A stretch of 64,000 nucleotides of DNA, from NCBI GenBank assembly GCA_025602915.1, contig JAHLJZ010000042.1:122468-186467 (forward strand), given 5' to 3'. The stretch comes from Paraphysoderma sedebokerense (taxonomy: Eukaryota; Blastocladiomycota; Physodermatomycetes; Physodermatales; Physodermataceae). The notes beneath the pieces are model-generated. The model saw only the letters and a list, made by a program, of their open reading frames with translations, was not told where the DNA came from and ran no database searches. The translations under genes and the position numbers were made by a program. This document shows positions 2,495 to 23,252 of this stretch, in pieces; within the stretch, counting starts at the first letter, position 1; each line of letters opens with the position of its first letter.

Positions 2495-3690
2495 TTCTTA
2501 TGCAATGCAACCTACCAAGTTCAAGTTGGGGATACGCTGTCATGCATGCTAATTACCTTGCTGGTTACTGGCCCCACTCTTTTCATAACTACGCTTCGCC
2601 CAACGAAATCCTCAACATGGTACCTCAAAACTGATGCAGACCGCCTGGTTAATGAGCTACTATCTTTAAACCAAAGCTCACATTTATTCCCTTACCATAA
2701 TCATATTACAATCCGATCCATATCTTGCTCCTGCTTCTCTATTACAACCAAAAGCTAACAAACGCTCCAATAAACAGGCCCCTACGGCAGCTACTTCCTC
2801 TAATATTTCCTCCTCGCGCTCTAACGCCTCCCCTTCGTGCCCCAAATGCAAAACGCTCCCGCAAATCCTTCTCCCGCTGATCAACTTGGGACTTTACATG
2901 ACGACGGCGGGCCCCCGCATCATGCTACCCCCCAAGTTGAGGGGGAGGATGCAGACCTGAACTCGAAGGATGTCGATGATAACATTGACGTCGAAAAATC
3001 TAATGCGGATGAAAGTGATAAGTCCTGATCTGGCACCATAGATACAATATTAATGAACATATCAAACATCCTGGGGATTCTGGGGTCAATGAGACCAACT
3101 GTGATCAGATTCTCTATACTACCATTAACCATACTATAACGGCAAATGCAATTCTTGAAAAGGATCCAGACTTCAGAGTCGACTACTATACAACAATGTC
3201 GAGAACGATCTGATTGGCCGAAGTGGGAAGAAGCGATCCAAGTCGAGTTGAGCGTGAGATCAATGAAGAAACGACGAGTATTCTCAACCCCTGTCGATGT
3301 ACCGAAGAATAAAACTCTAGTAGGCTGCTTGTGGGTCTTTGTCCGCAAACGAAATGCCGAAGGCGAGATTGAGCGATATAAAGCTCTCCTTGTTGCTCAG
3401 GGCTTCTCGCAACGACCCGGAGTTGATTATCAAACTACATATTCCCAGGTTGTCGATTTAATTACGACGAGGCTACTCACAGCCTTCGTCGTCCCTCGTC
3501 GCCACCAACAAGCTTGAGATGTCCTCCATGGACGTTGTTACGGCATAATTATACGGCGAATTGGAGCACGATGTCTATATGAAAGTCCCCGAAGGCATCG
3601 AAATCCCTAATGTATTAGAAAGACCAGGGGTTAAATTAGTGAAAAGTATATACGGACTCACATAGAGCCTGAAGGCAATGGTATTAGCGA
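2495..3690 (+). mobile_element. Decayed Ty1/copia-type retrotransposon remnant
   Basis: Three pieces line up in the order of a copia polyprotein. At about 2508-2625 a frame reads LPSSSWGYAVMHANYL followed by SPNEIL, the pattern of the C-terminal integrase region (lP..lW..Av..A.yl ... tP.el). At 2837-3028 there is an acidic linker. At 3146-3500 a frame gives the reverse-transcriptase (RVT_2) start with GCLWVFVRKRNAEG, RYKALLVAQGFSQRPGVDY and TYSQVVD. After a frame change it continues with SSMDVVTA, a stop, LYGELEHDVYMKVPEG and VKSIYGL up to about 3670. Frames are broken by stops and shifts, and I cannot see LTRs, gag, protease or RNase H, so this is a dead internal fragment. Identification as copia is secure; the exact ends are not. 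Confidence 0.75.
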
Positions 3691-7855: not shown

Positions 7856-8848
7856 TTAACAAGCAGCACGGATTGTAATACCAGTTTTGTTTTGTCGCAA
7901 TAGCGCTTCTTTCCTTTTAGCCAACCAGGTATTTCGTCGATGTTTCAAAGCACTCATTTCATCCGTTCTATTATTATCCAACAACATTCGAACACCTTCA
8001 TCAAATCCACCAGGATGACTCAATGCATAATACATTGGTAATTTTCCTTCAAAATCTGGCACATTGGGCTGAGCGCCCTTGGCCAATAACACTTTTAGAC
8101 AGGGCAAATCGCGGTTGATGGATACTTTGTGTAAAGCGGTGTGACCAAAAGAGTCTCGTTGGTTAATAGATTGTAAGAATTCGGGGTTTAGAGATAGCAG
8201 ATGAGAAAGAATATTGGCATGTCCATTGTCTGCTGCCGCATGGATGAGGGTGGATATCGGTAGAGACTCGGAAAGCGAAGACGACGATGAGGGTAAGGAG
8301 CGAGAGTGGTAAAATAACAACAATTTGAGAATATCTAGTGAGCCGCTTTTCACAGCATGAATGAGAGGGCTCTCTCCTCTAAAATTCTGAGCATGAATGT
8401 TGACTCGATATGAGGAGAGCAAGAACTGCACGGTTGACAAGTGGTGATTGATGACTGCGTATGCGAGTGGAGTGAAGCCGTAATTGTCGGATTGATCGAT
8501 GACGGATGCGATGGGAAGAGGAGAAGAAGATGATGAAAGTGACGAGTGATGGGCTAGCAATGAAGAGAGGGTGTGGAGATGGCCAGATTGGCAGAGGATG
8601 TGGACTGGGGTTTGCCCTTTGCGATCAGCAGTTGAGAGTGGGATCAATTGGTAGAGGGAGGGCGGGATTGGTTTAGCGAGCGATCTGAGGTTGTTGAATC
8701 TTGCGATGTGGAAGTGCAGGAAGGCTCTGTCTGAGAGGATGCGAGCGAAGCGACGGGAGGTTGGGAGAGCGGCGGCCAGGTGCAGGGGATCGAGGTTGAG
8801 GAGGATGTTGACGAGGAGTTCGTCCGGGACAGAGGCGATGTGGGTCAT
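7856..8848 (-). CDS. F-box plus ankyrin-repeat protein
   Basis: About 330 codons if translation begins at the ATG at 8848 (MTHIASVPDELLVNILLNL). This start places the F-box (VPDELLVNILLNLDPLHLAAAL, trimmed here to the first part) at the N-terminus, as is usual. The frame stays open upstream to another ATG at 9094, but that extension has no recognisable domain and is probably leader. Ankyrin repeats follow: GQTPVHILCQSGHLHTLSSLL, YGFTPLAYAVINHHLSTVQ, GESPLIHAVKSGSLDILKL, a unit with LIHAAADNGHANILSHLL, and GHTALHKVSINRDLPCLKVLL. Ser-rich loops interrupt them. The family role is substrate binding for an SCF ubiquitin ligase or a scaffold. No introns are needed. Confidence 0.75.
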   Translation of the reverse strand: MTHIASVPDELLVNILLNLDPLHLAAALPTSRRFARILSDRAFLHFHIARFNNLRSLAKPIPPSLYQLIPLSTADRKGQTPVHILCQSGHLHTLSSLLAHHSSLSSSSSPLPIASVIDQSDNYGFTPLAYAVINHHLSTVQFLLSSYRVNIHAQNFRGESPLIHAVKSGSLDILKLLLFYHSRSLPSSSSSLSESLPISTLIHAAADNGHANILSHLLSLNPEFLQSINQRDSFGHTALHKVSINRDLPCLKVLLAKGAQPNVPDFEGKLPMYYALSHPGGFDEGVRMLLDNNRTDEMSALKHRRNTWLAKRKEALLRQNKTGITIRAAC

Positions 8849-9094
8849 TTGCTTCAGATAGTGCAGTGTGGGTATCACTAGTTGTTGTTGTGGTAGAGGG
8901 AATGAGTGGAATTGGAATGAAGAGAGGGAATGAATTGAGAATGCACAGAATTGACTCCGAGTGAAGAACAGGGAACGCGTCGAGATGGCTGCCCAATCAG
9001 CGCGCGTGTCCATGCCGTGATTTCGCAGCATTTCGCTCCTCCATTTTGTCCGCCTTTGTCCTTTCGATCTGGCCAGACACAGTGCATTTGTCAT

Positions 9095-12233: not shown

Positions 12234-12280
12234 ATTGGTGGAGTGGATGACACGAAATCGACATACTTGGAGGAACCAAT
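12234..12280 (+). promoter_or_regulatory. Inverted CCAAT pair of array copy 1
   Basis: ATTGG at 12234-12238 and CCAAT at 12276-12280, 42 bp start to start, in the context GAGGATTGGTGGAGT ... GAGGAACCAATCCTG. A GACACGA core lies between. The same arrangement precedes the other tandem copies. CCAAT boxes are bound by the HAP/NF-Y complex in fungi; its use here is an inference. A TATA-like ataaaaa lies at 12346-12352 and the ATG at 12476. Confidence 0.65.
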
Positions 12281-12475: not shown

Positions 12476-13216
12476 ATGAAATCCATGATCGTTTTCTTTG
12501 CTCTTGTCGCTGTCGCGTTCGCTAGTCCTGTCCCTCAACAATCCAACTCTATTGTCATCGCTGGCAACAACGCCACCACTCAAACTACCACTGGCAGTAT
12601 TACCGACAACCGAAACCTCAATGGTTTCCAGTCCAATTTTATCAATTTCGCCCGTAACAACGCCCAAGGCACTCAACTCAGTGTATTATCTACCTCTGGT
12701 AACGCCGCCAGTGAGCAATTGATGCAAGCTGTTGCAAGAGAAAATAAAGCCGGGGATCAACGTACAGCTGTCGTTCAATCTTTTAATACTGCCTCAGACG
12801 CCCAAGAAGGATTGTTACAAATCGTGGGTAACCAAGCTCTCAGTAACCAAGAAAATGTGGCCATCAGCGCCAACAACCGTGCCAATACTCAATTCGCTAG
12901 AGCCCAAGTCGTCGATAACTTGAGTTTAGGACTCCAATCTAACCTTGCCAGTCTCCAAGGCAACACCGCGAATGTTCAGAACCTTGGTGGCAATATTCGT
13001 GGTAACATTGCCGGTCAACAATCCACTACCATTGAGGCCCTCCGCAACTCCGCCACTGGAGGTCAATTCTTGGGTCTCAATATTGCCGAGAATACCGCTT
13101 TTGCTGGAAAACAAGTCAACAGTGGTTTAGTCTCTGGTAACTCTGCCGCAACTCAATCAATTGAAAGCAACGTTGCTAGAAATGCCGTGAGAGATTGCAA
13201 ACTCCTGCGGAATTAA
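12476..13216 (+). CDS. Secreted Asn/Gln-ladder repeat protein, array copy 1 (altered C-terminus)
   Basis: An intronless frame of 246 codons. MKSMIVFFALVAVAFASPVP is a signal peptide. The mature part is built from about 13-14 coils of 14-16 residues with a G-N-x-A-x(2-3)-Q pattern followed by alternating hydrophobic positions (for example LSTSGNAASEQLMQAVAREN, LQIVGNQALSNQENVAISAN, LASLQGNTANVQNLGGNIRG). Such a spacing suggests a beta-solenoid; it resembles the N-x-A-x-x-x-Q pattern of bacterial curlin, though homology is not shown. Compared with copy 2, a net 10-nt deletion just after RDC shifts the frame, so the protein ends KLLRN and loses the Ser/Ala/Gln tail and its second Cys. The bases for that tail are still present after the stop. 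I infer a cell-surface or extracellular structural role. Confidence 0.85.
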   Translation: MKSMIVFFALVAVAFASPVPQQSNSIVIAGNNATTQTTTGSITDNRNLNGFQSNFINFARNNAQGTQLSVLSTSGNAASEQLMQAVARENKAGDQRTAVVQSFNTASDAQEGLLQIVGNQALSNQENVAISANNRANTQFARAQVVDNLSLGLQSNLASLQGNTANVQNLGGNIRGNIAGQQSTTIEALRNSATGGQFLGLNIAENTAFAGKQVNSGLVSGNSAATQSIESNVARNAVRDCKLLRN

Positions 13217-14438
13217 TGGCTTGCGCTCGTTCTTAGGTGTTTATCGCAAATAGACGGCAAGCTAGATAAGATTGAAGCAAAATATTTTGGATGTGTTGAA
13301 TGTAAATTTGAACTATTGTAAAATTATAAAATTTGATTTTTTGATTTTCTGTGTTATTCATTTCAACTTTCGTGGTCCGAAGATGAATAAAACTTCATGT
13401 TTCAATATTCAGTTGTCTCATTCATGCACAGCCACAATTAGCTGAGTGATCTGAACTAGGTTTCATATCTTCTAGGAATACTTCCATCATTATTGTAATG
13501 AATCAGGTTAAAGAAAGTTGAAGACATTTGAAAGTTACTATGAATGTAATATTAAGTTTTGTTACCATAATGTTATTCATACTCCATAACATAAGTAGCC
13601 TGCACGAAGTCTGTAGGCCTTAGTAGTTTCAACCCGTGATTTTGTCTTGCCTTGTATTACGTTCATCATACATTCAGTTCGTTCGTTGTCGCCTATCATT
13701 CTTTTAGATATTTCTTTATTACAAAGCTCATATATGGATGGGTGGATAAATCTACTGCCTTCGTATATTCACCGCTTTGTGGTTATTACATAGATACGAA
13801 ATAACGATATAAATCACGGTTTCTATTTCTAGGTTTGCGTCATGATCACATATATTATGTGTTCCACCGAACTTCAATCAGTTCCTCCCGTTTCGTTACA
13901 GTTATATTGCAATCAAAAGTTTTTTATTCATCCTCGTCCGAATACTTTATAGTCATGAGAATAAGCGATAAAATATCAAAGTGACATATCCCTTACAAAT
14001 GTACTGAATCGTCAAGACCGAAATGAAGTCATTTGAACAAAGAGGGCACTAAAACATCCGGTACCGTTGGTTGGGATGGTCTGATTCGACCCGGATCAAA
14101 TTCACTTGGTTTCACAGGTATAGTATGCATCGTCCTATAAATGGGTGACGCTTATTATTCAAATACTCGGATTGGTGTGGCCAAAATTTTACCAAACGGG
14201 CATGAAGAGGAAGCAAATGAAATGTTGAATTCTTTTTTGCGCACAAAATAAAGTGTGGCTTAAGTAGTAATTATAAAATCAGATGCACAACTCATGAATT
14301 ATTGAATTTCAGCCTATGAAACCCGAGGTTTATCTGCCGTCAATGTCGAGCATGAATGTTCCTGGATAAATGCAATAAACACCACAACCATTCACACGGG
14401 TGCTGGAGGTAGCGATACATTCTGACGCGAGGTTTAGG
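13217..14438. other. Intergenic spacer between array copies 1 and 2
   Basis: No gene seen. The first ~170 bases match the 3' flank of copy 2 (ttttgattttctgt and gaagatgaataaa are shared), giving a likely poly(A) signal AATAAA near 13386. The segment after about 13920 is the duplicated upstream region of copy 1. The middle (13400-13900) is unique AT-rich sequence. Confidence 0.6.
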
Positions 14439-14486
14439 ATTGGTGGAGTTCAATGACACCGAGTCCACACACTCAGAGGAACCAAT
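14439..14486 (+). promoter_or_regulatory. Inverted CCAAT pair of array copy 2
   Basis: ATTGG at 14439-14443 and CCAAT at 14482-14486, 43 bp start to start, in the context TAGGATTGGTGGAGT ... GAGGAACCAATACCG, with TGACACCGAG between. A TATA-like ataaaaa lies at 14560-14566, upstream of the ATG at 14690. Confidence 0.65.
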
Positions 14487-14689
14487 ACCGATTCATTCCT
14501 CTACTAAACAAGATTTTACTGTGTATTACAGAAAACTTTAGTCTCGAAATAAAGAAGGGATAAAAAGGACGTTGTTTCTTACCATTGGACTCAGTCAGTC
14601 AAACACATTAGTTCAATTTACCTCGTATCACCAAATAGACACTCTTTCTTTCCTAGACTTCAAATTTGATAGACACTCTTTTAAAAAAA

Positions 14690-15460
14690 ATGAAATCCAT
14701 GATTGTTTTCTTTGCTCTTGTCACTGTCGCGTTCGCCAGTCCTGTCCCTCAACAATCCAACTCTATTGTTATCAGCGGCAACAACGCTGGCACTCAAACT
14801 ACCACCGCCAGTGTTACCGACAACCGAAACCTCAATGGTTTACAAACCAATTTTATCAATTTCGCCGGTAACACCGCTCAAGGCACTCAACTCGGTGTAT
14901 TATCTACCTCTGGTAACGCCGCCAGAGACCAATTGATGCAAGCTGTTGCAAGAGAAAATAAAGCCGGGGATCAACGTACCGCTGTCGTTCAATCTTTTAA
15001 TACTGCCTCAGACGCCCAAGAAGGATTGTTACAAATCGTGGGTAACCAAGCTCTCAGTAACCAAGAAAATGTGGCCATCAGCGCCAACAACCGTGCCAAT
15101 ACTCAATTCGCTAGAGCCCAAGTCGTCGATAACTTGAGTTTAGGACTCCAATCTAACCTTGCCAGTCTCCAAGGCAACACCGCGAATGTTCAGAACCTTG
15201 GTGGCAATATTCGTGGTAACATTGCCGGTCAACAATCCACTACCATTGAGGCCCTCCGCAACTCCGCCACTGGAGGTCAATTCTTGGGTCTCAATATTGC
15301 CGAGAATACCGCTTTTGCTGGAAAACAAGTCAACAGTGGTTTAGTCTCTGGTAACTCTGCCGCAACTCAATCAATTGAAAGCAACGTTGCTAGAAATGCC
15401 GTGAGAGATTGCAGCAGTGCCAGAACTCTTCAAGAATTGATGGCTTGCGCTCGTTCTTAA
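14690..15460 (+). CDS. Secreted Asn/Gln-ladder repeat protein, array copy 2 (intact)
   Basis: 256 codons, intronless. The ATG at 14690 (MKSMIVFFALVTVAFASPVP) is preferred over one 24 nt upstream because it starts directly at the signal peptide and matches the other copies. The repeats are as in copy 1. From about 14935 to 15409 the DNA is almost identical to copy 1 (I noticed one difference, aca/acc, near 14980), whereas the first 250 nt and the promoters have many differences. The tail reads RDCSSARTLQELMACARS and has two Cys about 14 residues apart, conserved in copies 3 and 4; a disulphide is possible. It serves as the reference full-length member. Confidence 0.88.
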   Translation: MKSMIVFFALVTVAFASPVPQQSNSIVISGNNAGTQTTTASVTDNRNLNGLQTNFINFAGNTAQGTQLGVLSTSGNAARDQLMQAVARENKAGDQRTAVVQSFNTASDAQEGLLQIVGNQALSNQENVAISANNRANTQFARAQVVDNLSLGLQSNLASLQGNTANVQNLGGNIRGNIAGQQSTTIEALRNSATGGQFLGLNIAENTAFAGKQVNSGLVSGNSAATQSIESNVARNAVRDCSSARTLQELMACARS

Positions 15461-16220
15461 GTATATGCCGCGGCTGGAGTGGAAACTAGATATGATAGAG
15501 AAGCAGTATTTTTTGTATGTGAACTTGAAAGTATTTGACATTTGATTTTTGATTTTCTGTATTGTGTCTTCAATTGATGTGGTCTGAAGATGAATAAAGA
15601 TTAAGTGCATATGTCATAACCTATCTTCTGCTTCCATTTGTATACATATGGGAACATAAACCTAATCCTGTGCTTCTTATTTTCTATCGTTGTTAATACT
15701 GATTCACCGGGACAATATTTTAACCCAGGAGAATTATGCCAGTGACTTATTGTTCCCTCGACATCTCCACATTCAATATTGTGCATTCAACAAACAATAC
15801 AAGTTCTACGAGACCGCATATTTTCTTCTCAATATTCACTAACCTCTTCGGAATCCAAAAGAAAGGTCCCTAGATTGTTGAATCTCGAATGTTCGCTAAG
15901 TCATTGTTCAATGTAATCTTCATTCAATCATAGCACTTGCTAGATTCGGATGTTCCTCATAATCACTTCTTTGCAATTAGTCATTCTGTAAATACTGCAA
16001 ATAATGTATGCTGGCGGCTAGTGTGATTTTGTTATTCTGACTCGATTGGAGCATCAAAATCAAAAAAGAAAGCTCTTATAAAACTTTATAATTACCAACA
16101 GACTATTGGTACCGTTTTTAAAAATATCATAGTGTGTATGTATCTGCTAAACATACACAATTAAAAAGAACCAACCAAGGTACGTTGGCGATAAAGTATA
16201 ATGAACACGCGTATTTGAGG
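15461..16220. other. Intergenic spacer between array copies 2 and 3
   Basis: No gene seen. AATAAA near 15594 is a probable poly(A) signal of copy 2. A second 'gaggattggtgg' context begins at 16217 and belongs to the copy 3 promoter. The rest is unremarkable AT-rich DNA. Confidence 0.5.
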
Positions 16221-16267
16221 ATTGGTGGATTCCTAGACGCGAAGCGGTAAACACCAAACGAACCAAT
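16221..16267 (+). promoter_or_regulatory. Inverted CCAAT pair of array copy 3
   Basis: ATTGG at 16221-16225 and CCAAT at 16263-16267, 42 bp start to start, within TGAGGATTGGTGGATT ... CGAACCAATACTGAT. The intervening DNA keeps an ACGCGAAGCGG segment. TATA-like tataaaaa at 16333-16340; ATG at 16450. Confidence 0.65.
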
Positions 16268-16449
16268 ACTGATGAATCGCCGATTAAATAACTAATGACG
16301 CACTTTAATCAAGAAAATTAATGTCTCAGGAATATAAAAATGGGATACATTCCTAGGTTTAATACCACACAGAATAGCAAGTCTGATCAGCTAATTCAAT
16401 CACAAATCATTCTCCACTCGTTGCATTCTAATATCGTTATCTGCAAAAA

Positions 16450-17217
16450 ATGAAATCCGTGATCGTTTTATTTGCTTTCATCGCTGTCGCGTTCTCCAGT
16501 CCGGTCGCTCAACAATCTAATTCTTTGTTCATCGGCGGCAACTCCGGCAAGAATCAAGTTACTACAGGCAGTATTACAAACAACCAAAATGCCAACGGTG
16601 TTCAAACTGGTGTCATCAATTTTTCCGGGAACACCGCCAATACTCAACTCGCTGTATTGTCGACAGTCGGAAATGCCGGCAAAGACCAAATTTTTGAATC
16701 AGTCGCTTCTAGAAATGCCGCAGGTGATCAACGTACCGCTCTCGTTCAAGCTGGCAATACCGCTAAAAATTCGCAAAAGGGATCTTTACATATTAGCGGC
16801 AGTGTGGCAAATAGTCAAGAAAATGTAGTCCTCAGCAGTAAAAACAAGGCTACGACAGCAAGTACTAGCGCCGGTGTGACTGATAATTTCAGTTTCGGTG
16901 GTCAAAATAATATTGTCGGTGTGAATGAGAATCAAGCGACTACTCAAGAACTCGGTTCCAAAATTTTAGGGAACACTGCCGGTCAGCAAATAAACAGCAT
17001 CCAAAATGGAAAGAACTCCGCCAAAGGAAATCAATCTTTTAATGTTAATTTAAGCAAGAATCTTGCTTTCGGAGGAAAACAAGTGAACGATGGTGCGATC
17101 AGTGGCAATGGTGCGGGAGGTAACCAAAAGATCGTGAGCGACCTTACTGGAAACAAAGTCAAGGATTGTAGCGCTGCAAAGACTACTCAACAATTATTTG
17201 CATGCATCCAAGGCTAA
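16450..17217 (+). CDS. Secreted Asn/Gln-ladder repeat protein, array copy 3 (intact)
   Basis: 255 codons, intronless. MKSVIVLFAFIAVAFSSPVA is a signal peptide. The coils follow the same spacing with a higher Lys content (GNSGKNQVTTGSITNNQN, INFSGNTANTQLAVLSTVG, LHISGSVANSQENVVLSS, KILGNTAGQQINSIQNG). The tail KDCSAAKTTQQLFACIQG keeps the two Cys. It is clearly diverged from copies 1 and 2 and closer to copy 4, so it is an older duplicate. AATAAA near 17335 is a plausible poly(A) signal. Confidence 0.87.
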   Translation: MKSVIVLFAFIAVAFSSPVAQQSNSLFIGGNSGKNQVTTGSITNNQNANGVQTGVINFSGNTANTQLAVLSTVGNAGKDQIFESVASRNAAGDQRTALVQAGNTAKNSQKGSLHISGSVANSQENVVLSSKNKATTASTSAGVTDNFSFGGQNNIVGVNENQATTQELGSKILGNTAGQQINSIQNGKNSAKGNQSFNVNLSKNLAFGGKQVNDGAISGNGAGGNQKIVSDLTGNKVKDCSAAKTTQQLFACIQG

Positions 17218-18002
17218 ATTTGTTGCTAATTGTATATAATGTAGATGTGTATATAGCTTTTACTTAATCATATAATCGTAAACCAATCTCTATTAATTTT
17301 CGGTCAATTCTTGTGGATGAATATGAATGTGTTGAATAAAGTCAGATTTGCGTATGAGTTATAAATCTACCCTTACAGTTCAATTCCTTACCGATGAGCA
17401 CATAATTGCTTTGATTGTAGCTCTAAGAACTCGGCTTGGCTAAAATAGATCTATCCCTTGAGTGGAATTTAATTCCCGTTAATGTCAGAGAGATGAGGTT
17501 GTACGCAGGTATAAAAATTCATTGTTATTGATTCATAATATCTCCTATTTATTTGACTTTACGGCTGCAGACGTTATTAGAGTAAAGCACGCTCAGATAT
17601 ACCAATTTATTTCCTGTATGCCCTCGCCCAAATTAGTTGACATCGTGTAACTTTTGAAGTCTGAAGTAGTACCCACGCAGAACTTAAATCTTCTGCCTGC
17701 TACCCTTCACTATCTAGGAATTAAATCAGACTGATAGCATTAATTTTAAGACTGCGAATCGAAATCTGGTTTGTCTAGTGTAAATCTGCTGTTCCAAGCA
17801 ATTGCATTCCGCCGGTTTCTTCACCAACTTAGCCAACCAAAATATTAAAAGGGTAGCTCATTAAGTACCTACAGGTAACGGTCAATTATTGGCAGTCTTT
17901 CTGATAGCCAGTTGGCATCGAAATCTGCTATATGTTTACAGTCAGAAGCAACCAACCGCGATACGTTGCTACATGAAGCATATTAAACGCGCGAAGTTGA
18001 GG
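17218..18002. other. Intergenic spacer between array copies 3 and 4
   Basis: No coding frame or RNA gene recognised. Its right end carries the copy 4 promoter. Confidence 0.5.
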
Positions 18003-18049
18003 AATGGTGGGGTGGAAGACCACGAGCCGACAATCCCATAGGAACCAAT
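18003..18049 (+). promoter_or_regulatory. Degenerate CCAAT pair of array copy 4
   Basis: The downstream CCAAT (18045-18049, in GGAACCAATCCTGATT) is intact. The upstream element reads AATGG instead of ATTGG (TGAGGAATGGTGGGGTGG). This is the only tandem copy whose upstream half is damaged, and its coding region is also broken. A TATA-like ataaaa lies at 18116-18121. Confidence 0.6.
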
Positions 18050-18226
18050 CCTGATTAAATTTCAATTAATACAGCAATGTAAATCTTAAACCACGAAACT
18101 TTAATTTTCGGCGACATAAAAGGGCTTTCTTTCCCACTTCCTATCATTAACAGAGAAACAACTCGAATCTCTTGAATCACTACAATTCACTAACCCCTAT
18201 CGCGTTCCAAATTTTTATCTGCAAAA

Positions 18227-18954
18227 ATGAAATCCATAATCGTTTTATTTGCTCTCGTCGCTGCCACGCTCTCCAGTCCTATCGCTCAACAATCCAATTC
18301 TTTGTTCATCGGCGGCAATTCAGGCAAAAATCAATTTACTACTGGCAGTATTACACACAACCAAAATACCAACGGCATGCAATCCGGCTTCATCACTTTC
18401 GCCCAGATCAAGTCTTCGAATCCTTCGTTACTCTAAACTCTTCTGCTGCACAAGGTACCGCTCTAGTTCAGGTTGACAATGCCGCCAAAAACACCCAAAA
18501 GGGATCCTCAAAGATCAGTAATAACGATGCCAATATTCAACTTAATTTCGTCGAAAGCAGAAAGAACAGCGTCACTACCGCAACTACTAAAGCCGATATT
18601 ACCAATAATTTGGGTGTGAAGGACCAAAGAAATTTGGTGGATGTGAATAAAAATCGAGCAACCAAACAAGTTCTAGGATCCGCTATATCAGGTAACGTTG
18701 CCGGTGAGCAAGAAAACAAAATCCGCAATCAAAAGAACGCTGCAAAAGGAGATCAAACATTTGACATTAATTTGAATAAGAATATTGTTTTCACCGGAAA
18801 ACAAGGGAAACAAGTAAACTCTGGTGAAGTTAGTGGCAATACAGCTGATGGCAACCAGAAGGTTAATAGCGACCTTACTGGAAACGAAATTACCGCGAAA
18901 GATTGCAGCTCTGCTAAGACTCCCCAACAAGTTTTGGCATGCCTGGGGCTCTAA
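18227..18954 (+). pseudogene. Secreted Asn/Gln-ladder repeat gene, array copy 4, frameshifted
   Basis: The start at 18227 (MKSIIVLFALVAATLSSPIA) and the first coils match copy 3. After GFITFA the frame runs to a stop at 18434-18436, giving 69 residues. The rest of the gene is open in another frame from about 18410 (DQVFESFVTLNSSAAQGTAL) to the stop at 18954 with the tail KDCSSAKTPQQVLACLGL. Aligned with copy 3, a net 55 nt is missing at this point, more than one coil, which shifts the frame. No other stop interrupts the downstream part, so the lesion is recent or the allele is polymorphic. A sequencing error cannot fully explain a 55-nt loss. A small intron is unlikely, since the family is otherwise intronless. 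Confidence 0.8.
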
Positions 18955-21983: not shown

Positions 21984-22074
21984 TGTCGTCTCCGTGGATT
22001 GAACACGGGGCCTTCAGATGACAGTGCCTTAAGGACCCTTCAGTCTGACGCTCTCCCAGCTGAGCTAAGACGAC
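21984..22074 (-). tRNA. tRNA-Phe (GAA) with an 18-nt intron
   Basis: The reverse complement folds as a cloverleaf: acceptor GTCGTCT/AGACGAC, D-arm TTAGCTCAGCTGGGAGAGC, anticodon loop with GAA, T-arm with GTTCAATCC. An 18-nt intron (plus-strand 22020-22037) sits one base after the anticodon, the standard position for nuclear tRNA introns. The exons are identical to the intronless tRNA-Phe at 37530-37602. Confidence 0.93.
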
Positions 22075-22379: not shown

Positions 22380-23252
22380 TTAGCACCCAGCAGCGGGAGC
22401 AGCGCTCTTTGGAGGAGCAGGGTTGTTTGCAGGAGGAGGGTTACTTGCAGGAGGAGGATTATTTGCAGGAGGAGGGTTGTTTGCCGGAGGAGGGTTATTC
22501 GCAGGGGGAGGGTTATTTGCAGGGGGAGGGTTATTTGCAGGGGGAGGGTTGGCTGGAGGAGTTGTGGTTTGTGATAGAACAGAATTTCCATTGATTAAGG
22601 CATTGAAAATGGAAGATCCAGCGCTATTACCGGAGACGGATCCGGAATTCGCTTGGCTATTCAGTGCCATGTTATCGGTAATTCTGAGAGCAAAGTCTTG
22701 GACACCGACTGCTTTGTTCGATCCGATATTTCCGATATTTACTTGAGTGACAGCAGCATTCTTTGACATGGATTGCAAGAACGCTTGATTGAAGGCAGTA
22801 TTACCAGACATATCGATGCCATTGCGTTGAGCTCCAAAAGCCATGTTGTTTTCGATACCAGCGGCAAGACCTTGAGTGCCAGTAGCGACATTCTTGGATG
22901 TTTGGATGATGTTGGTCTGACCAGAGCCGCTGACAGAACCTGTAATTCCGACCATAATGCTTTGATCTTTTGCGGAATTTTGAGCAACTTGGATACCGTT
23001 TTTCATCTCCAATGCGGCGTTATTGGCCATGATAGCATTCATGCCTTGTGTTGATCCAGCTGTATTGCCGACTGAGGCGAAGATGTTGGTTTGGAGACCT
23101 CTGAGGTCGGAGTTCCCAGATAAGACGACATTCGTAGATTGGGTACCACTTGCCTGATTACCTTGGATGGAAATGGAGTTGGTTTGAACGGGTGCCGCGA
23201 CAGATGAAGACGCCAAAGCGAGGAATGCTAAAGTAGATAATTTGGAGAACAT
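22380..23252 (-). CDS. Secreted Asn/Gln-ladder repeat protein with Pro-rich tail (fifth family member)
   Basis: 290 codons, intronless, opposite in orientation to the tandem array. MFSKLSTLAFLALASSSVAA is a signal peptide. About 13 coils follow (SISIQGNQASGTQSTNVVLS, FASVGNTAGSTQGMNAIMAN, GIDMSGNTAFNQAFLQSM, SGSVSGNSAGSS) with the same G-N-x-A-x(2-3)-Q spacing as the array genes. Sequence identity is much lower, so this is an older paralogue. The C-terminal ~60 residues are a Pro-rich stalk of seven NPPPA[N/S] hexamers and then KSAAPAAGC with a final Cys, in place of the two-Cys tail. Such Pro-rich segments often act as wall-spanning or extended linkers, which fits a surface protein. The function is not known. 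Confidence 0.85.
   Translation of the reverse strand: MFSKLSTLAFLALASSSVAAPVQTNSISIQGNQASGTQSTNVVLSGNSDLRGLQTNIFASVGNTAGSTQGMNAIMANNAALEMKNGIQVAQNSAKDQSIMVGITGSVSGSGQTNIIQTSKNVATGTQGLAAGIENNMAFGAQRNGIDMSGNTAFNQAFLQSMSKNAAVTQVNIGNIGSNKAVGVQDFALRITDNMALNSQANSGSVSGNSAGSSIFNALINGNSVLSQTTTPPANPPPANNPPPANNPPPANNPPPANNPPPANNPPPASNPPPANNPAPPKSAAPAAGC
22420..22555. repeat. 18-nt tandem repeat encoding NPPPAN units
   Basis: Seven near-identical 18-bp units (plus-strand pattern close to ttTGCaGGaGGaGGgTTa) inside the minus-strand gene. The units vary mainly at third codon positions. It is a coding minisatellite, prone to length change. Confidence 0.85.

Follow-up and report, generated by a model that had tools for sequence, protein, structure and literature searches.

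Paraphysoderma sedebokerense, described as a blastocladiomycete fungus and a parasite of green microalgae, probably encodes a family of proteins that are secreted and fold stably into beta-solenoid rods, and members have to date been seen in this genome alone. Five members lie in the window, that is, the whole 64,000-nucleotide stretch of contig JAHLJZ010000042.1 that was analyzed, and two relatives lie outside it: L006, some 40 kb upstream of the window within its contig, and L008, on a different contig. Columns of Gln and Asn that recur at a fixed spacing along these proteins are seen directly in their sequences, and two confident structural models, together with the pattern of substitutions among paralogues, support a beta-solenoid in which these columns would be stacked.

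Gene copies and their surroundings

Whole-genome searches (27.3 Mb, 195 contigs) with copies 2, 3, 5 and L008, each used singly, returned the same seven loci; the searches were intron-blind and the locus count is a lower bound. The initial annotation had proposed four tandem genes and a fifth one, and all five are found at their positions (Table 1), but copy 4 does not stand as an intact frame, since translation from the ATG at 18227 meets a stop at 18434-18436 after 69 codons. The public match to the family, a hypothetical protein of P. sedebokerense (P0002), is the exact product of copy 4 once the 59-nt GT-AG stretch is removed. This stretch may be either an intron or an annotation artefact, and copy 4 either a spliced or a decaying gene.

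Table 1. Members of the family and other features of the window, with the number of Q-x8-N matches per protein.
Feature	Positions	Strand	Description	Q-x8-N
Copy 1	12476-13216	+	Open frame: leader and putative solenoid coils	16
Copy 2	14690-15460	+	Open frame, 256 aa: leader, 15 coils, predicted C-terminal helix, two Cys	16
Copy 3	16450-17217	+	Open frame, 255 aa: arranged like copy 2 as judged from sequence, with 53% identity to it	14
Copy 4	18227-18954	+	Straight frame broken; public model P0002 of 222 aa	11 (public model)
GT-AG stretch of copy 4	18348-18406	+	59 nt, missing from public model P0002	
Copy 5	22380-23252	-	290 aa: leader and, as judged from sequence, solenoid coils, then a Pro-rich (PPPANN)n tail with a final Cys	11
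Tandem repeat in copy 5	22408-22550	-	18-bp repeat coding the Pro-rich tail (TRF: period 18, 7.9 copies)	
L006			Relative outside the window	11
L008			Relative outside the window	10
ATTGG...CCAAT pair	12234-12280	+	Upstream of copy 1	
ATTGG...CCAAT pair	14439-14486		Upstream of copy 2	
ATTGG...CCAAT pair	16221-16267		Upstream of copy 3	
Open frame	3140-3517		Possible Ty1/copia-type reverse transcriptase fragment, by its wording	
F-box gene	7856-9094	-	F-box and ankyrin-repeat protein	
tRNA-like gene	21984-22074	-	Anticodon unnamed by ARAGORN; possibly an intron-containing tRNA	

An N-terminal leader is clear by hydropathy in all seven proteins, with a peak of 1.95-3.31 compared to at most 1.44 elsewhere, in agreement with the signal peptide that had been proposed; the cleavage site used throughout was assumed rather than predicted by a program. 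The mature proteins are basic (pI 8.1-9.6). The C-terminal part varies among members: copies 2, 3, 4 and L008 (four of the seven) carry two Cys near the C-terminus, while copy 1, whose 3′ end is unlike that of copy 2, ends early, with one Cys and without the segment containing the second Cys and the helix. In copy 5 and L006, which are 88% identical across 238 aa, the solenoid part has no Cys and the Pro-rich tail ends with one.

The ATTGG...CCAAT pairs upstream of copies 1-3 were considered as a shared promoter, a candidate that we rejected: these words are common across the window and, because they turn up roughly 1.4 times in every 450 nt, we claim neither co-regulation nor a function for the pairs.

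Residue spacing and predicted fold

The periodicity of the proteins is above chance, the strongest autocorrelation lags of Asn and Gln being 14, 15, 29 or 30 in all seven (z 3.4-7.9, 500 shuffles) with the highest value for Gln at lag 15 in L008 (z 7.9). In copy 2 the turn-to-turn spacing is 14, 15 and 16 residues in 7, 5 and 2 of 14 cases, respectively, and these are the coil lengths given in the initial annotation; its estimate of 13-14 coils per protein was too low for the copy 2 model, which has 15, and for L008, which has about 18.

The motif Q-x8-N, found 10-16 times per protein (Table 1), occurs on average 2.4-3.5 times and at most 8-9 times in shuffled sequences, the margin being small for L008 (10 vs a shuffle maximum of 9), and nine is the most frequent Gln-to-Asn distance, among distances of 3-21, in each of the seven proteins. 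Fifteen of the 16 matches in copy 2 coincide with its 15 coils and one is out of register. By comparison, N-x-A is more frequent than in any of 2000 shuffles in five of the seven proteins (copies 1, 2, 5, L006 and L008), without excess in copy 3 (9, maximum 10) and copy 4 (6, maximum 8), and the looser form N-x-[AVSGL]-x(1-4)-Q exceeds the shuffle maximum in just three. A hand count in copy 2 gave an Asn-to-Gln distance of 5, 6 and 7 residues at 7, 5 and 2 of the 14 junctions, with the Gln-to-Asn distance constant at 9. Q-x8-N is the cleaner rule; the N-x-A...Q pattern originally described holds in part, and its wording is partly misleading as it spans the variable distance instead of the constant one.

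AlphaFold2 was applied to the mature parts of copy 2 and L008 (with the assumed cleavage site), using the seven family sequences as the alignment. Copy 2 reached a pLDDT of 97.0 and a pTM of 0.92 (96.1-97.0 over five models) and L008 a pLDDT of 89.2 and a pTM of 0.85 (79.7-89.2), although model confidence on such a regular repeat may flatter. Both models are beta nearly from end to end, with a single C-terminal helix. In the copy 2 model each of the 15 coils consists of an eight-residue strand starting from Gln and a turn of two residues, the second being Asn, followed by x-Ala in 12 coils and then by a link of variable length, so that Gln stands at position 1 and Asn at position 10 in 15/15 coils and Ala at position 12 in 12/15; no charged residue occurs at positions 1, 3, 5, 7, 10 and 12 (0/90). 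At the same coil positions L008 has Gln in 14/18, Asn in 12/18 and Ala in 9/18 coils, with 2/108 charged residues, counting 16 listed coils plus two placed by position (turns at 43 and 73), where DSSP assigns no turn. A clear break at the link is given by DSSP in 14 of the 16 listed coils of L008; in copy 2, strand or bridge runs throughout 9 of the 15 post-turn links, and for this reason the corner before Gln is poorly defined. Inward and outward positions were assigned from the strand limits and their alternation rather than from coordinates. The handedness of the two models is not fixed, because both rest on seven sequences and because AlphaFold2 with sparse alignments is reported, in the available text of PMC10192328, to have given the wrong handedness for curlin at equal confidence.

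The models thus agree with the stacked Asn/Gln beta-solenoid suggested by the initial annotation. In the fold that we propose, each coil of 14-16 residues would start with an eight-residue strand from Gln, with side chains 1, 3, 5 and 7 taken as inward, and would continue with the two-residue turn closed by Asn, a few residues that include an Ala, likewise taken as inward, and the variable link to the next Gln; stacking of the coils would produce continuous Gln and Asn columns, probably hydrogen-bonded along the rod. The two ends of the rod would differ. The helix predicted at residues 230-238 in copy 2 (Cys 224 and 236) and 271-279 in L008 (Cys 276 and 282) overlaps one C-terminal Cys in both models, and a disulfide between the two Cys together with the helix would form a likely cap. 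At the other end the solenoid begins a few residues after the assumed cleavage site, with the first coil uncapped in both models, and therefore the N-terminal end looks open.

Such an uncapped coil would allow these proteins to be a eukaryotic functional amyloid, whose rods, like curlin, join end to end into fibers, either on the surface of the fungus or where it touches the alga. We consider this unlikely. The C-terminal helix, predicted in both models, suggests that one or more members are closed at this end and, with the Cys pair of four of the seven, would block one end of the rod; curlin is just row 36 in the Foldseek search with L008 (E 0.88, prob 0.01), and many beta-solenoid domains are described as non-polymerizing in the available text of PMC10192328.

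Divergence, relatives and proposed role

Substitutions were compared in eight chosen paralogue pairs of the 21 possible, with copy 1 excluded. The inward strand positions 3, 5 and 7 are identical in 166/341 comparisons and the outward positions 2, 4, 6 and 8 in 122/454, a difference whose Fisher p of 3e-10 is overstated since the pairs share sequences; Gln is kept in 89% and the turn Asn in 82%. The direction is the same in all eight pairs, being weak in copy 5/L006 (37/42 vs 46/56). This check is only partly independent of the models because they used that same alignment. Overall, the core of the predicted solenoid is conserved and its surface drifts. Moreover, dN is lower than dS in all six computed pairs (0.062/0.357 for copy 5/L006 and 0.39/1.00 for copy 2/copy 3), and therefore the proteins of the family are under constraint. 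Copies 1 and 2 are identical in six consecutive 60-column blocks (12826-13185, 360 alignment columns), with 53-59/60 per block at the gene start, 30-56/60 in the upstream flank and 45/60 or fewer downstream; identity inside diverged flanks is likely the result of recent gene conversion.

An outer face that diverges faster than the core, as in copies 3/4 (63/75 identical at positions 1, 3, 5, 7, 10 and 12, vs 28/74 at the other positions up to 12), would also be expected if the secreted proteins served as effectors or decoys aimed at the algal host, their stable scaffolds presenting a changeable surface that binds the host wall or host proteins. Tandem duplication, and the fact that no relative was found outside this genome, point in the same direction. 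We regard this reading as unlikely, given that dN below dS in each computed pair shows no signature of positive selection at the level of whole genes and that the homologue searches see only fairly close relatives. As for ice-binding beta-solenoids, the outward face has no regular Thr array (2/15 coils of copy 2 at positions 2 and 4, with a highest outward count of 5/18, at position 4 of L008), which makes them hardly credible here.

Among about 5.8 billion proteins, the searches returned either nothing or only copy 2 of the window and the public record of copy 4; the method requires shared five-residue words, and one run scored just the 7991 candidates with the most such words in common, so that distant fungal relatives could escape it. 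By sequence, the PDB gave no match for copy 2 (E 1) or for a seven-row profile (E 10), all Pfam rows for the family proteins were below cut-off and of unrelated families, and four proteins had no NCBIfam match at E 0.1. Scans of genome contigs with copy 2 and of viral contigs with L008 returned pattern matches and no relative. By structure, neither model had a row at E 0.001 in the Foldseek search of the PDB, the first row for L008 being an alginate epimerase (E 0.044), and the viral library BFVD gave weak rows only for copy 2 (best E 5.2e-3). Four uncharacterized proteins of the algal virus Tetraselmis virus 1 are among these weak rows, and a phage protein that bears the name 'Curlin associated' stands at row 13, with E 0.073 and prob 0.21. 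In the part of the PMC open-licence literature that was covered, no title or abstract opening names these proteins and no expression or function is reported for them; the available portions of PMC9123766, PMC9224648 and PMC11797010 hold nothing on them, and PMC9224648 mentions a dual-transcriptome study.

Secreted, basic and stable rods with a drifting surface would fit a coat or adhesive role, and this is the role that we infer for the solenoid family. The rods may be exported and serve, at the surface of the fungus or in its matrix, as a coat or an adhesive, those of the copy 5 type being displayed on a Pro-rich stalk, and may pair or stack through the open N-terminal end. Amoeboid propagules become fixed to the alga through a sticky linkage before they encyst, according to the available text of PMC6446968. 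The family provides concrete, testable candidates for surface proteins of a fungus that parasitizes farmed microalgae.

Comparison with curlin and other known systems

For the beta-helix of SufB/SufD the identity is 6% and 3%; both proteins work inside the cell in Fe-S assembly and are not known to carry a leader. The functional amyloid FapC (9u4u) is the first Foldseek row for copy 2, with E 6.5e-3, prob 0.10 and TM 0.11, and no sequence relation between FapC and the family was found. The fungal Als/Flo adhesins, which in the available text of PMC6023273 cluster at the surface via short amyloid cores rich in Ile, Val and Thr, would be alike by analogy of role only, as clustering surface proteins, and are set apart by that description, their cores being short and not whole-chain solenoids. 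The same text describes adhesins as rarely reported outside Ascomycota and has Blastocladiomycota among the phyla listed.

With the curlins CsgA and CsgB (PF07012) the family shares a leader, many short coils, a predicted beta-solenoid, and Gln and Asn columns beside small hydrophobic residues. After re-alignment of structures, the solved CsgA of Pontibacter korlensis (8c50_A) ranked top for L008 and fifth for copy 2. The repeat itself is different: coils are of 14-16 residues in the family compared to 23 ± 5 in curlin, where N-x-psi-x-psi-x-Q forms the strands and X-G-X-X the arcs (PMC10192328, available text), and the family does not show this repeat. The Gln-to-Asn distance is 9 in the family and 5 in CsgA/CsgB, whose Asn-to-Gln distance is 6-7, besides the whole-coil 17-18. 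According to our models the family strand starts with Gln, and the strand order would be opposite to that of curlin. The predicted C-terminal helix, the lack of a sequence-profile match and the occurrence in a eukaryote are further differences.

The fold match and the N-x-A...Q wording could suggest true curlin homologues acquired from bacteria, which we judge very improbable on account of the different period and spacing and of the profile searches. The curlin repeat profile (PF07012, Curlin_rpt) had no match across the genome, with the E. coli control detected, and its cut-off was not reached by any of the seven proteins (copies 1, 2, 3, 5, P0002, P0003 and P0004), compared to 95.8 bits for CsgA and 86.3 for CsgB; hhalign of the family against CsgA/CsgB gave a probability of 0.2% over nine columns, with two sequences on the curlin side, and the scan of genome contigs contained no relative. 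The likeness to curlin that had been noted therefore stands in part for architecture and not for membership: the build is curli-like, with shared ancestry apparently absent.

An independently evolved eukaryotic counterpart of curli, with a shorter coil of reversed order, assembly through the N-terminal end into surface fibers, helix-capped members as terminators and Pro-rich-tailed ones as anchors at the sticky contact with the alga, seems to us quite improbable as a whole. If the proteins polymerize, they would be a eukaryotic analogue of curli. The solenoid family suggests that a Gln/Asn ladder can arise with a coil length and residue spacing unlike those of curlin, which would help to tell the requirements of the ladder as such from features that curlin has inherited.
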